A stretch of 44,364 bases of DNA from Opitutales bacterium (GTDB lineage Bacteria; Verrucomicrobiota; Verrucomicrobiia; Opitutales; UBA2995), in contig JAJDZZ010000030.1 of assembly GCA_022824405.1 (NCBI GenBank), positions 1 through 44,364 on the forward strand, written 5' to 3'. Shown one piece after another: positions 36,837 to 42,748 of this stretch. The position numbers were made by a program, and so were the translations under genes. The notes under the pieces were generated by a model. The model worked only from the letters and a program-made list of their open reading frames with translations. It searched no databases and was not told the DNA's origin. Position 1 is the first letter of the stretch. The number at the start of each line of letters is the position of its first letter.

Positions 36837-37073
36837 ACGACAACGCGCCCCAGGCCGGAGGTTTTTCAATTTCAAGGCCTGAAGAACCGGAAAGTAACGG
36901 CGGATTTCAAAGGCGGTTACCTCAGTAGCGAGGGCGAAGCGCTCTTCCTGCGCGAAGTCGAACGACGCTACTGCATCATCGCGAAATTGGTCCGGTGTCC
37001 CGCTGATGGACCGCCTCAGAACAGAAGCTCAGAAATTTGTGAGCTATCGGGGCTAAAGGAATACGATCCATAA
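36837..37073 (+). pseudogene. IS1380-family transposase N-terminal remnant
   Basis: In one frame the DNA reads RPEVFQFQGLKNRKVTADFK then GGYLSSEGEALFLREVERRY, the N-terminal signature of IS1380-family transposases (usually ...ARFDGGxxSSDGGxLLLREVxRR). It has no start codon, loses similarity after about 60 residues and stops at TAA 37071. Nothing of the catalytic DDE domain is left. The relic lies directly upstream of the bacteriocin-like cluster and points to past insertion-sequence activity at this spot. Confidence 0.75.
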
Positions 37074-37136
37074 TTTTTTGTAAGAATGGCAAATATGTTG
37101 TTGACCTAAAGAATCCTGTGTATGTGTTGACGATGA

Positions 37137-39212
37137 ATGGCCGAGTTCGGCCTTCTCTCTTACATGCTACTTACTCTGGGAATTCAGTCCCGTTACCTTG
37201 CTGATGCTGAAACATTAGCCGATCGATTGCTTAATCGAGCAATTATTACTTCGAAAGGCTTGTGTTGGCCCAGCATTGCTTCTGCGTATTCGAAAGACCG
37301 CATCGTCCGTCACCCGAACATGACGCTTGCTTCGGGTAATTCCGGTATCTGTCTCTTTCTAAGTGAAACCTATCGGCGGACGGGGAACGAGGATTTCCTC
37401 GAAGCCGCGATTAAAGCGACCGATTGGATTGATTCGGAGTGCCACAAAGGGAACGAAGGAGCCAGGTCCCTCTGGTTTGGGCAGTTGGGAGGGGTCGAGG
37501 CGCAGTTGGCTCTCTTTGAAGCAACTGGAGACAGAGTCTTTCTTGAGAAAGCACGGTTACTCGCAATCAAGTGTGGAGAAGCCTATTTTAATGAAGATCA
37601 ATCGTTGGGGCCCATTTTTTCCAACATAGGCAGCGGCGCAGCCGGCGCGCTTCTAACCCTACTTCGTGTTTTCGAAAAAACCCAAGATGAACATTCTCTT
37701 GAGCTTTCAGGCAAGCTCATGCGACTTCTCGGGTGGAGAGTTCGTCTCGCCCCTGAAGGCATTTATTGGGACCGTTTAGGAGCCACGATTCGACCTCCTA
37801 TCGGCTTTATTACCGGGACATCGGGAGTGCTCTTCGCCCTTGCCGAAGCCAACAAAGTCCTCCCCTTCGAGGCCTGTAGTTGGCTGTTAAGCCAAGGGAT
37901 CCTTTACGAGAACTCATTCTTGAAAAACGACCCGGCCAACTGGCCCGATTTGTCACACTCTACCTGGAGTCTTGAGGACCTTTCGAACCTGCCCAAGAAA
38001 ATCCGCAACGCATTGAAAAAGGGGGATGAGGCATTCTTCAAGGAATTCGGCGACAGCGCTTCGTGGTCTAACGGATGCTCCGGCATTGCGCTGGCACGAT
38101 CCGCATGCTCCTCTTTCTTGGACGACGATTCCTGTCCGGAGGATATCGCTAGGGCCAAGAGGCGGATCGAGCAGGAGGTCGATTTGATTCCGCCATCGAG
38201 CGAAGAATCGGATTTCTCGCTGGCTAGCGGTCTTGGAGGTGTCGGCTTAGCTTGCCTGGGGCTATATTCCAAAACGGGCGATGTCACGTTTCGGGACCTT
38301 GCGGAAAGGATTGGCGCCGCTGCCCTGAAGCAACGCCAAAATCTCGGCTTCTACCGCTCCAGTTTGAAGGCGATTGAGGATGGTGAAGACATGGGCTTCC
38401 TCACGGGAAGCGCTGGAATCGGCTATTTCCTCCTCAAGTTGTCGGATGACAATATTGAACCTTCCCCTCTGGCTCCTTCTCTCGCCAAATTGGAACCTTC
38501 CCTCAAGGAGCCGCCGGAAAATGGGCCTTTAACAAAACAGCAAACAGTCTATCGGGCCCTTGCCTCCGTATTCCCCAGGACTTTAAGGCTTCTTAAGACG
38601 AACTACCCCAGTGTGTTGGAAGCATTGGCGGCGGAACTTGGCAACAACAGCTCGATTTTTGAGAAATTTGGAATCCTTTGCCAGGCTTATGAAGAATCCG
38701 AATTGACCACCGATGAGAAAGCCGTCTTCGACGATACCTACCGCGTCGAGAAAGCGAGGAAGGAACTGGATTTTGGCATTCGAGGGGACCGATACCTCAG
38801 TCTCAAGCTTGAATACGACTGTTCGAACAATCGACAATCCCTCGAGATCCTAAGTGAAAAGAAGCTTCTGTCTAAGAAGTTAGTCCTCGTTCCGGAGGCC
38901 CGGGTTTTGGAAAGCGCCTACCGATGGAGACGAAACGACGCTCGCAGGCTTGTGTTCGAAAAAATAACTACCTACTGCCTTCACCATCAGCGGCCATTTG
39001 GAGTCTTCGAAGCCGCCCTGCCAGAATTCAACTACCTCGTTCTTTCGGGTTTCCGCAAACCGACAAAGGTCAAAGTCGTCCTCAAGAAGCTCCTGAATCA
39101 GCTTTCTCCCAAGAGTGAAGAGGAACGTCAAAAAGTAATTCGAACGTCCCTCGATCAAGTGAAGGAAGCAATGCGCAACGGTTTGCTGTGCAGCACTGGT
39201 ATTTTGCGATAA
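37137..39212 (+). CDS. LanC-fold protein lacking zinc ligands, with unknown C-terminal domain
   Basis: 691 aa. Residues about 20-437 hold seven GxxG helical repeats of the LanC alpha/alpha toroid: SGNSGICL (66), GQLGGVEA (115), GSGAAGAL (165), TGTSGVLF (226), NGCSGIAL (312), GLGGVGL (365) and TGSAGIGY (423). In true cyclases the zinc ligands are a His before the third GxxG, WCxG and LCHG; here these read IGSG, WSNG (310-313) and LASG (362-365), so all three are gone. Residues about 480-691 form a second domain that I do not recognise, mostly helical and charged. No dehydratase domain is present, so it is not a LanM or LanKC. It has no clear Shine-Dalgarno site; an alternative ATG at 37133 is out of frame. 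The peptide gene begins 58 bases past its stop. A scaffold or maturation role for that peptide is inferred. Confidence 0.8.
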   Translation: MAEFGLLSYMLLTLGIQSRYLADAETLADRLLNRAIITSKGLCWPSIASAYSKDRIVRHPNMTLASGNSGICLFLSETYRRTGNEDFLEAAIKATDWIDSECHKGNEGARSLWFGQLGGVEAQLALFEATGDRVFLEKARLLAIKCGEAYFNEDQSLGPIFSNIGSGAAGALLTLLRVFEKTQDEHSLELSGKLMRLLGWRVRLAPEGIYWDRLGATIRPPIGFITGTSGVLFALAEANKVLPFEACSWLLSQGILYENSFLKNDPANWPDLSHSTWSLEDLSNLPKKIRNALKKGDEAFFKEFGDSASWSNGCSGIALARSACSSFLDDDSCPEDIARAKRRIEQEVDLIPPSSEESDFSLASGLGGVGLACLGLYSKTGDVTFRDLAERIGAAALKQRQNLGFYRSSLKAIEDGEDMGFLTGSAGIGYFLLKLSDDNIEPSPLAPSLAKLEPSLKEPPENGPLTKQQTVYRALASVFPRTLRLLKTNYPSVLEALAAELGNNSSIFEKFGILCQAYEESELTTDEKAVFDDTYRVEKARKELDFGIRGDRYLSLKLEYDCSNNRQSLEILSEKKLLSKKLVLVPEARVLESAYRWRRNDARRLVFEKITTYCLHHQRPFGVFEAALPEFNYLVLSGFRKPTKVKVVLKKLLNQLSPKSEEERQKVIRTSLDQVKEAMRNGLLCSTGILR

Positions 39213-39270
39213 TTTAGAAAATTTTGTTCAATAAATAAACTAACATAAAAAGAAAGGAATAAACATAAAT

Positions 39271-39519
39271 ATGAATGGAATAAACATTAGTGAAATCGGA
39301 GTAGTAGCCCTATCCCAATCAGAAGAATATGATATCGCTGGCGGTTGGTCTTGGGAGGAATGCTTGGGAGCGGCCGTTGTAACAGGTGTTACTTCAGGCT
39401 TTGTCGCTGCAGCTACGTCAGGAGGAGTTTTATCCCCCATTGCATTTGCTGCAGGTGCCTTTGGAGGTGTCCTTGGATATACTGGTTATGAGATCTGGAA
39501 ATATTACTTCGTAGAATAA
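39271..39519 (+). CDS. Double-glycine-leader, Gly/Ala-rich bacteriocin-like precursor
   Basis: 82 aa. The first 25 residues, MNGINISEIGVVALSQSEEY then DIAGG, are a typical double-glycine leader cut by C39 peptidase transporters. The predicted mature part is 57 aa, begins WSWEECLGAAVV, is rich in Gly and Ala with small-residue GxxxG patterns (GVTSG, GGVLG), has a single Cys and ends aromatic and charged (IWKYYFVE). This is the pattern of class II, often two-peptide, membrane-active bacteriocins. One Cys does not suit several lanthionine rings. GAAAGGA lies about 12 bases before the ATG. The gene is AT-rich relative to its neighbours, suggesting transfer. The matching C39 transporter is not in the window. 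Confidence 0.75.
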   Translation: MNGINISEIGVVALSQSEEYDIAGGWSWEECLGAAVVTGVTSGFVAAATSGGVLSPIAFAAGAFGGVLGYTGYEIWKYYFVE

Positions 39520-39553
39520 CATTAAAAAAACATAATTCCTAACATTATATATA

Positions 39554-39730
39554 ATGAATCAGTTGACAAAAATATTTTTGGGAACAGGTCTAATTGGAGC
39601 GGCTATTGGAGTTTTTGGTGGCGCTTTGAATTCTCTATTCCCACAAAGTGCATATATTATTTTATTAGGAGTTCTTGGTGGAACATTTATGGGAATTTAC
39701 ATTTCATATATAAAAAATAAAAAGGCATAA
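39554..39730 (+). CDS. 58-aa two-helix membrane protein, candidate immunity protein
   Basis: Translated directly: it begins MNQLTKIFLGTGLIGAAIG and ends YISYIKNKKA. Two hydrophobic Gly-rich segments (about residues 7-27 and 33-52) flank a short turn with NSLFPQSA; the C-terminal tail is basic (KNKK), so both ends probably face the cytoplasm. It follows the bacteriocin-like gene by 34 bases on the same strand and shares its high AT content. Small membrane proteins just downstream of class II bacteriocin genes are commonly immunity proteins. It could alternatively be the second peptide of a pair, but it has no double-glycine leader. No obvious ribosome-binding site. Confidence 0.62.
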   Translation: MNQLTKIFLGTGLIGAAIGVFGGALNSLFPQSAYIILLGVLGGTFMGIYISYIKNKKA

Positions 39731-39782
39731 ATTTCCACACTCTTTGGTAAAGCCTCAGCCAATTGTAATTTTGGGGGTTAAG

Positions 39783-39810
39783 GGCTCCGGGACTATTTCC
39801 TCCCGGAGCC
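39783..39810 (+). terminator. Strong hairpin closing the bacteriocin-like cluster
   Basis: GGCTCCGGGA and TCCCGGAGCC form a perfect 10-bp stem around CTATTTCC. There is no T-tract (TTCCCC follows), so it is a possible rho-independent-like end or a transcript-stabilising 3' structure, 52 bases past the 58-aa gene. Confidence 0.5.
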
Positions 39811-39956
39811 TTCCCCAATCTATACGAAAGAAAGAGGTCGGATTTAAAAACTGTATGGAGTACAACGGATTACAGACGCAATAGGGGCCGGTGAGGGCGC
39901 CGCACCATGGAGACCCGCGTATTCCCTCTCGCTGGCAATGGAATTAATGACAAGAT

Positions 39957-40616
39957 ATGAGTGAACCGTCTTACAAATGCCCCAAGTGCGGCGGCTCAAA
40001 CTTCAAACACTGGGAACTGCCGCATCCGGTTATCCTGCACTGGATTCTCAATCCGGGGGCGGTATTCAATGAACTCGTTCTCGGTCAGCGAATGCCGAAG
40101 ATCAGTCTGATCTGCCAGGACTGCGAAGGGCCTCTAATGGACCGGAGCTATACTCCATGCCCAAGTTGTGGCGCCATGCACCTCGGTCGCCTTTCCTCGG
40201 GAAAAGAAGCTTTTTTCAAATGGAGAGGGGCATCCTGTCCGTCCTGCGGGGAGGCCATTCCGTGTCTTTGGAACGTGTTTTCCCTGCTCGTCCTGTTGGT
40301 GACGTTTCCCATCTGGAGCCTTCCCTACTTCCTTTATTTTCGGAAAAAGCCGTTGAAACCGCTTTATCCCATGGTGGAGGGAAAACCGCCCACTCCGAAG
40401 GCGGTGACGAAAAAGACCTGGATCTACATGGGCGCAGGTTTTGGGGCCGTCATGTTTATATTCCTCTCTCTATTGCCTTTTCTGATCGGTTATGGTGATG
40501 GAGACATATGGGCTTCAGCGATTTCCGGGCTGACTGGCGGGATTATTGGAGGGATCGGATTTGGATTTTTCATGTGGTTTTTTCTTGGTAGAAGGAAGAA
40601 AGGTATAGCGTCATAG
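39957..40616 (+). CDS. Zinc-ribbon membrane protein of unknown function
   Basis: 219 aa. The N-terminal ~100 residues carry four CxxC knuckles (CPKC, CQDC, CPSC and CPSC), enough for two zinc ribbons. Then come membrane helices at about residues 105-127, 158-178 and 187-210, the last very Gly-rich (GLTGGIIGGIGFGFFMWFFLG). A 17-codon ORF at 39907-39960 ends in TGA overlapping this ATG (ATGA), which might couple translation. It lies downstream of the bacteriocin-like cluster in the same orientation, but the hairpin between argues for a separate unit. Confidence 0.72.
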   Translation: MSEPSYKCPKCGGSNFKHWELPHPVILHWILNPGAVFNELVLGQRMPKISLICQDCEGPLMDRSYTPCPSCGAMHLGRLSSGKEAFFKWRGASCPSCGEAIPCLWNVFSLLVLLVTFPIWSLPYFLYFRKKPLKPLYPMVEGKPPTPKAVTKKTWIYMGAGFGAVMFIFLSLLPFLIGYGDGDIWASAISGLTGGIIGGIGFGFFMWFFLGRRKKGIAS

Positions 40617-41683: not shown

Positions 41684-42018
41684 TTGTTCTGAGCTTGGTC
41701 AGGCAAGGGAAAATGAGACGGCAGGGCAAACTTAAAGGGAGTCACCCACAAAACTCCCGCTCGGCGCCAGGCTGGAGCTACGCTCAGACAGGGACCCTTT
41801 TTCTCCGCTCAGACAGGAAAAACCGGGAAAAATCCTGTTCGCGAAGCGATCCTGTTCCGGCGCAGCCGGATCGAGTGACCGGAGGAAACGTTGTTAGAAA
41901 CAAGGGTTTGGGGTAATTCGTCCACCTGGAATATAGGGTGGTGTCAGGTTCGGGCCAGTCGGGATTCCCGGGACGGAGTAAAACAAGTTTCCACACACTA
42001 GCTTGACTGTAGTAGCAT
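41684..42018. repeat. Intergenic gap with short repeats
   Basis: No gene is supported. It has CGCTCAGACAGG twice (41781-41792, 41806-41817) around GGGACCCTTTTTCTCC, and GTTCCGGCGCAGCCGGATC (41853-41871), a palindromic module also at 30824-30842. Confidence 0.5.
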
Positions 42019-42037
42019 TGTTTAACTATTGTAAACA
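42019..42037. promoter_or_regulatory. Inverted-repeat candidate operator of the Phd/PIN pair
   Basis: TGTTTA (42019-42024) and TAAACA (42032-42037) are inverted over seven bases and end one base before the antitoxin ATG at 42039. Autoregulation by the antitoxin is the usual pattern. Confidence 0.45.
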
Positions 42038-42038
42038 C

Positions 42039-42329
42039 ATGAAAACAATTCCATCCAGGCAACTTGCCACTCAGGCAGCAAAGGTTTGGAAACAGCTTGA
42101 CCGGGAAGGGCCGCTGGTGATCACCCGGAATGGTTATCCCAAGGGTATCCTGATACCCACCAGTGACTTAACGCTGTTAAACGACCTTCAGGAACAGTTA
42201 CGTGCCCGGGCACGTAGCGCCGTTTCCAATATGCGCAGGAAGGCGCAAGAAACCGGAGTATCCGCCTTATCGGCGAAAGCCATTGAATCTGAAATACATG
42301 GTACGCGGAAGAAGCGCCGCCGGAAATGA
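42039..42329 (+). CDS. Phd/YefM-family antitoxin of a PIN toxin
   Basis: 96 aa from ATG at 42039 (a TTG 12 codons earlier is rejected because the candidate operator would lie inside the gene). MKTIPSRQLATQAAKVWKQL is the prevent-host-death DNA-binding N-terminus; ITRNGYPKGILIPTSD matches the conserved centre. The C-terminal half is basic (HGTRKKRRRK), unlike most antitoxin tails. It overlaps the PIN gene by four bases (ATGA). Confidence 0.82.
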   Translation: MKTIPSRQLATQAAKVWKQLDREGPLVITRNGYPKGILIPTSDLTLLNDLQEQLRARARSAVSNMRRKAQETGVSALSAKAIESEIHGTRKKRRRK

Positions 42330-42748
42330 GCATCCCGGTCTGGGTTTTGGATACCAATGTGCTGGTATCCGGTTTGTTGAATCCCTCAGGCCACCCAGGG
42401 CGCTTATTGGATGCGGTGCTGAGTGGTCATTTGGTTCTGGCCCTGGATGACAGGATCTATGCCGAGTATTCAGAAGTGCTCATAAGGCCCAATTTCAAGT
42501 TTGATAAGTCGGATGTCCGGGACCTGTTGAGCTTTTTGCGGATGCAATACCGGATCAATGCTCATCCTGTAAAATTAAAAAATCTACCGGATGCATCGGA
42601 TTTGCCCTTCGCAGAAACGGCGCTCTCCTTGGAAGAAGCCGTGCTCGTCACAGGTAATCCCCGGCACTTTCCCAAGGCAATGCTCAAGGGACTCCTGGTC
42701 CTGAATCCAAAGCAAGCCTGGGATCGGCTGGCCAACTATCCTACCTGA
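42326..42748 (+). CDS. PIN-domain toxin (COG1569-type)
   Basis: 140 aa. VLDTNVLVSGLL carries the first acid (Asp9); Glu50 in YAEYSEVL, Asp89/Asp92 in DASDLPFAETAL and the VTGNPRHF segment complete a PIN fold, with Asn in place of the last Asp. PIN toxins are Mg-dependent ribonucleases. Overlap with the antitoxin indicates coupled translation. A likely terminator follows. Confidence 0.85.
   Translation: MSIPVWVLDTNVLVSGLLNPSGHPGRLLDAVLSGHLVLALDDRIYAEYSEVLIRPNFKFDKSDVRDLLSFLRMQYRINAHPVKLKNLPDASDLPFAETALSLEEAVLVTGNPRHFPKAMLKGLLVLNPKQAWDRLANYPT

Follow-up and report, generated by a model that had tools for sequence, protein, structure and literature searches.

In the window analysed here, a stretch of 44,364 nucleotides that spans contig C63 from end to end in an assembly of 3.39 Mb and 96% completeness, a relative of the LanM cyclase half lies immediately before a precursor with a double-glycine (GG) leader and a small membrane protein (Table 1). 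The feature is real and likely a bacteriocin-like operon. With a confidence somewhat short of even, we interpret it as a bacteriocin-type operon in which the LanC derivative serves as a "non-ring-forming" maturation or delivery factor, export is provided by an unlinked C39 transporter, and the 58-aa protein confers self-protection.

Table 1. Features of the cluster (positions in the window).
Feature	Position	Strand	Evidence
IS1380-family transposase relic, N-terminal fragment	~36837-37073	+	reading frame from 36837: PF13701 and tblastn
691-aa LanM-cyclase-derived protein without the dehydratase half	37137-39212	+	PF05147, TIGR03897, alignment
C-terminal extension of the 691-aa protein, ~240 residues	38481-39209	+	sub-cut-off winged-helix signal, residues 547-613
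82-aa double-glycine (GG) leader precursor	39271-39519	+	ORF list, leader pattern scans, GC3
58-aa two-helix membrane protein, candidate immunity protein	39554-39730	+	Kyte-Doolittle stretches, position, GC 0.32
Strong 3' hairpin, end of the cluster	39771-39818	+	fold of 39730-39830

An earlier note on this DNA had described three open reading frames in order on one strand, closed by a strong hairpin and directly following an IS1380 relic. The coordinates agree with this description, as does the fold of the 101-base stretch 39730-39830 (-38.7 kcal/mol, z -4.1); the main stem has no T run downstream, so the hairpin is not a textbook intrinsic terminator. The relic matches PF13701 below the family cut-off (E 1.4e-5), its tblastn matches are transposases, one of which is annotated as IS1380, and a 64-base piece of it is repeated, with 88% identity, at another place in the genome. 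The intergenic gaps, all on the plus strand, comprise 58 bases between the 691-aa and 82-aa ORFs and 34 bases between the 82-aa and 58-aa ORFs.

Both short-ORF lengths are reached on the plus strand in 1.8% of Markov-shuffled copies, and judged by length alone a chance occurrence of these ORFs is only moderately unlikely; the case for them comes from the leader motif, the gene order and the low GC content. The GC content of the cluster genes is 0.32-0.53, against 0.54-0.60 in most other genes sampled. GC and GC3 equal 0.46 and 0.32 in the 82-aa gene and 0.32 and 0.19 in the 58-aa gene; for the LanC gene GC3 is 0.57, and most of the sampled genes that belong neither to the cluster nor to the C38 operon described below have a GC3 of 0.63-0.70. 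The AT-rich small genes are consistent with acquisition from outside, and the cluster was probably acquired horizontally. Directly behind it, the window encodes a 219-aa protein (39957-40616) that has several membrane helices and, at its N-terminus, a Cys-rich part resembling a zinc ribbon, and further on a gene pair for a Phd/YefM-type antitoxin (PF02604, just under the cut-off) and a PIN-domain toxin (PF13470) at 42003-42748. The PADLOC, PHROGs and Rfam searches returned nothing useful.

The 82-aa precursor consists of a 25-residue leader ending in LSQSEEYDIAGG and a 57-residue hydrophobic core that is rich in GxxxG, contains a single Cys, as had been noticed before, and has the Tyr-rich end GYTGYEIWKYYFVE. 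The leader fits six of the seven positions of LSxxELxxIxGG and reads as a near-perfect GG leader; the pattern LSxxExxxIxGG occurs only once in the six frames of the window, in this very ORF. A genome-wide scan with one moderately degenerate form of the leader gave 8 matches against 9 in the reversed control, which is the background level, and only the match in the window belongs to a convincing short ORF. Relatives of the 82-aa peptide were found neither in its own genome nor in plasmids or viral contigs. The 58-aa protein possesses two hydrophobic stretches (Kyte-Doolittle), gave no significant match in the family libraries and no relative in viral contigs, and is a candidate immunity protein.

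The LanC fold claimed for the 691-aa protein is borne out by PF05147 (E 1.9e-29, residues 61-441). The best specific model is LanM TIGR03897, matched at positions 547-931, which represent the cyclase half (E 2.6e-42); the score is below the whole-protein cut-off because the dehydratase half is absent, and the family searches revealed no DUF4135 dehydratase domain. The LanKC model matches are significant yet under the cut-off (E 3.5e-22), and the kinase expected of a class III/IV synthetase gave no match in the family search. GH127 appears as a secondary Pfam match (E 1.4e-9), LicM2 alone was clearly found in a PDB sequence search, and the NWPD motif of several LanMs is kept. Judging by its sequence, the 691-aa protein is a relative of LanM cyclases. 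Not mentioned in the earlier note are the ~240 residues after the LanC part (~450-691), which have no clear family match; the nearest signal is PF24409 wHTH-PRTase_assc at residues 547-613 (19.1 bits against a cut-off of 27; E 0.0014 when searched alone), and a leader-binding winged helix in this extension would be a guess. Structure prediction without an alignment gave a pLDDT of 37 for the whole protein and 42 for the C-terminal part, and was left unused for fold searches.

Alignment with 12 other LanM, LanC and LanC-like proteins confirmed that the zinc positions are substituted (S311, A363 and S364, none of the three ligands being kept) and indicated that the acid/base positions have changed as well: N163 corresponds to Asp141 of NisC and T226 to His212. 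The protein thus possesses neither the Cys-Cys-His (or Cys-Cys-Cys) zinc triad nor the Asp/His pair of LanM enzymes. The earlier note assumed that LanC cyclases depend on zinc, which does not hold throughout: the cyclases of class III LanKC have none of the zinc ligands and still form rings, without metal (PMC10604976). This is why zinc loss alone is indecisive, and the missing dehydratase becomes the main argument against lanthionine. Searches of the 96%-complete genome found no LanM dehydratase PF13575 and no LanB PF04738 (at E up to 1), the dehydratase of the class I combination of LanB and LanC; the 691-aa protein is the only PF05147 protein encoded. Because neither a LanM or LanB dehydratase nor a second LanC protein was found in the genome, lanthionine formation here is very unlikely.

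The window holds the precursor without an exporter; looking for a C39 transporter elsewhere in the genome, as had been proposed, yielded two, on contigs C10 and C38, as befits a GG-leader peptide. The C38 transporter belongs to the bacteriocin type; its match to TIGR01193 (E 3.6e-153) falls slightly short of the model cut-off. Its operon (L008:3572-7919, G000:C38) has a GC content of 0.44-0.49, also under that of most other genes sampled, and carries genes for a sulfotransferase-like protein (PF13469, 26.9 bits against a cut-off of 27), HlyD and C39 in the order of raxST-raxA-raxB; no precursor gene was seen beside it. The second set is an NHLM-like transporter pair on C10, next to a 451-aa protein (L007:1972-3327, G000:C10) in which an NHLP-type leader region is followed by a weak squalene-hopene-cyclase-like match. 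The bacteriocin-type C39 of C38 is the likelier exporter of the 82-aa peptide than the NHLM pair, and this peptide would then be its substrate.

The recurrence of the gene pairing in related genomes, suggested by the earlier note as a check, was not observed. Orthologues of the 691-aa protein were found in none of the overlapping sets of 36 (relatives), 388 (phylum), 373 (order), 388 (phylum) and 384 (class) genomes. Two scans of genome contigs, which used few exact peptide patterns and had little reach, gave no orthologue, nor did viral contigs and phages, and a plasmid search with the C-terminal part returned no relative. With no orthologue found in related genomes, there is no sequence against which conservation of the short ORFs, or selection, could be judged.

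Beyond the related genomes the pairing does recur. The closest relative found is a 505-aa LanC-family protein of Flammeovirga pectinis (WP_170178623.1), encoded on a plasmid and 25% identical to the 691-aa protein over residues 35-465 (blastp E 3e-27; z 39 against shuffles). It, too, is without a dehydratase half; Asn and Lys occupy its acid/base positions, and of the three zinc ligands no more than one is left, possibly a Cys at the CH position. It begins near the same domain boundary as the 691-aa protein and is degenerate at the same positions. GIYWD, N268-W269 and D271 are kept in both proteins; most former active-site positions differ between them (T/K, S/I). Near its gene, a 51-aa peptide with the GG leader MKKLTFNQMGKINGGG is encoded, and the locus (NZ_CP034564.1, 43934-51369) also includes genes for a C39 transporter, a redoxin, GLPGLI and a glycosyltransferase. 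No dehydratase is annotated on the listed stretches of this plasmid, for which the gene table is incomplete. The pairing of a LanC protein with a GG peptide therefore has a second example, in another phylum, and this is the only other locus that shows it. A C-terminal domain shared by the two relatives was considered and dropped, the extensions being not detectably related (z -1).

In the tree, the two relatives form a group (95/94) that adjoins the sampled LanM cyclases without falling among them; it unites long branches, which drew a program warning. Modest support (83/76) places the 691-aa protein nearer to LanM cyclases than to the stand-alone LanC-like proteins encoded by related genomes. 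Two other loci were recorded on the way. A full LanM with a Cys-Cys-Cys triad occurs in another genome of the same order (L009, G034:C26, 6905-10162 and 11131-11846), together with two small Cys-containing, precursor-like ORFs whose leaders end in VAGG. A plasmid of Staphylococcus aureus (NZ_CP094774.1, L030:3037-4342) encodes a 336-aa stand-alone LanC-family protein with intact zinc ligands; it is close kin of a LanM and probably a LanM remnant.

The earlier suggestion that a LanC-derived non-cyclase serves a bacteriocin fits the lost residues, the GG precursor and the absence of a dehydratase from the searches, and its mechanism is plausible. We suppose that the 82-aa precursor combines a class II GG leader with a hydrophobic, probably membrane-active core of antimicrobial action. 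The 691-aa protein most likely no longer forms thioether rings; it would keep the peptide-binding toroid, bind the leader or core, hold the precursor soluble and perhaps pass it to the exporter. Cleavage of the leader behind GG and export of the peptide would be the work of the unlinked C39 transporter of C38 with its HlyD partner, and the 58-aa membrane protein would protect the producer. The lack of linkage between exporter and precursor speaks against this explanation, as do the failure to find orthologues, the single other locus with the pairing, the C-terminal extensions without detectable kinship and the long branches at which the two relatives join.

For the LanC derivative we prefer the role of a peptide-handling "pseudoenzyme" to that of a metal-free modifying enzyme. 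That it still modifies the precursor, be it with metal-free chemistry as in class III LanKC or with the LanC toroid as the site of a novel reaction, is in our opinion unlikely. Ring formation by class III cyclases without zinc ligands, the Ser of ThurKC at the Cys284 position, as here (PMC10604976), the significant, though sub-cut-off, LanKC match and the residues common to both relatives all speak for such an enzyme. However, the differences between the relatives at most active-site positions leave no new catalytic set apparent, the core offers one Cys only, and with no dehydratase found in the genome there would be no dehydroamino acids for thioether chemistry. A decaying remnant, i.e., a LanM gene cut short by the IS1380 element and accompanied by chance or leftover short ORFs, seems improbable to us. 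It would agree with the relic immediately upstream, the loss of every known catalytic residue, the lack of orthologues found and the 1.8% chance for the short ORFs by length alone, but 691 codons are open, long extension included, the GG leader is canonical, no recognisable remains of a LanM dehydratase were seen upstream (three forward frames, by eye), and the Flammeovirga relative shares both the approximate domain boundary at its start and the degenerate positions.

There are two further explanations. The peptide may represent a RaxX-like sulfated signal or effector, its core tyrosines being modified by the C38 sulfotransferase before C39 cleavage and the LanC-like protein being an accessory binder. 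The rax-like order of the C38 operon, the lack of a precursor seen beside it and the Tyr-rich core end are in line with this, as is RaxX itself, whose GG leader is cleaved off by RaxB (PMC6637879). We judge it scarcely as probable as decay, since the sulfotransferase is at the Pfam cut-off only, the likeness to rax consists in gene order, and precursor and operon are unlinked. A complete raxX-raxSTAB cluster has been reported only from Xanthomonas (PMC6637879). Very improbable is a carbohydrate-active alpha/alpha-toroid protein (GH127/GH88-like) outside peptide maturation. Such a role was suggested for some zinc-less LanC proteins of Bacteroidales (PMC10352776) and agrees with the GH127 match, but the LanM model is far stronger, the tree, with its modest support, favours LanM cyclases, and each of the two relatives has a GG peptide encoded nearby.

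What is known of bacterial LanC proteins chiefly concerns their formation of rings. The similar pairing on the Flammeovirga plasmid suggests that LanC enzymes which look dead may have a further function, in the maturation of antimicrobial-type peptides. A broader reading, less likely than not, is that LanM cyclases which stand alone and are catalytically "emptied" constitute, in more than one phylum, a family of dedicated chaperones for GG peptides or of enzymes acting on them by new chemistry, and thereby a dehydratase-free RiPP-like or chaperone-assisted bacteriocin class. Among the LanC-like proteins treated by Walker et al. (2020), 1,392 were left without a class, some of which are encoded close to ABC transporters and proteases (PMC7268733). 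If the pairing recurs, it would offer a concrete and testable case of this kind, in which the LanC fold has been put to new use, either for handling peptides as a pseudoenzyme or for chemistry not yet known.

Among the known systems, the cyclase half of LanM (class II, TIGR03897) shares its fold and the NWPD motif with the 691-aa protein, which differs by lacking the dehydratase domain and zinc ligands and by its added C-terminal region. LanM synthetases work with GG-leader precursors and C39 exporters. The cluster also resembles those of unmodified class II GG bacteriocins of the class IIb type, with a GG leader, a hydrophobic GxxxG core and a small membrane protein behind; its peptide differs in having no family match, and we know of no LanC-type partner in such clusters. 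Class III ThurKC likewise lacks zinc ligands and shares the Ser at the Cys284 position (PMC10604976), but has Phe-Asp where the 691-aa protein has Ala-Ser, and a kinase/lyase half that is missing here. Cyclases whose triad is undefined have been reported next to a dehydratase (PMC11251773). The earlier note did not recognise the combination as described, and this is correct in part: the Bacteroidales RiPP clusters BGC3-5, likened here by their description, have LanC genes without the zinc motif near GG-type precursors, but radical SAM enzymes are present there (PMC10352776), while for a dehydratase-free, zinc-less LanM derivative as the sole partner of a GG peptide we found no description in the limited open-access literature. 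The Flammeovirga locus shares the stand-alone LanM-related protein with degenerate zinc and acid/base positions, a GG peptide close by and no dehydratase annotated nearby; it differs by the C39, redoxin, GLPGLI and glycosyltransferase genes, a different peptide, and a LanC-family protein with a shorter, unrelated-looking C-terminal extension and possibly one remaining Cys.
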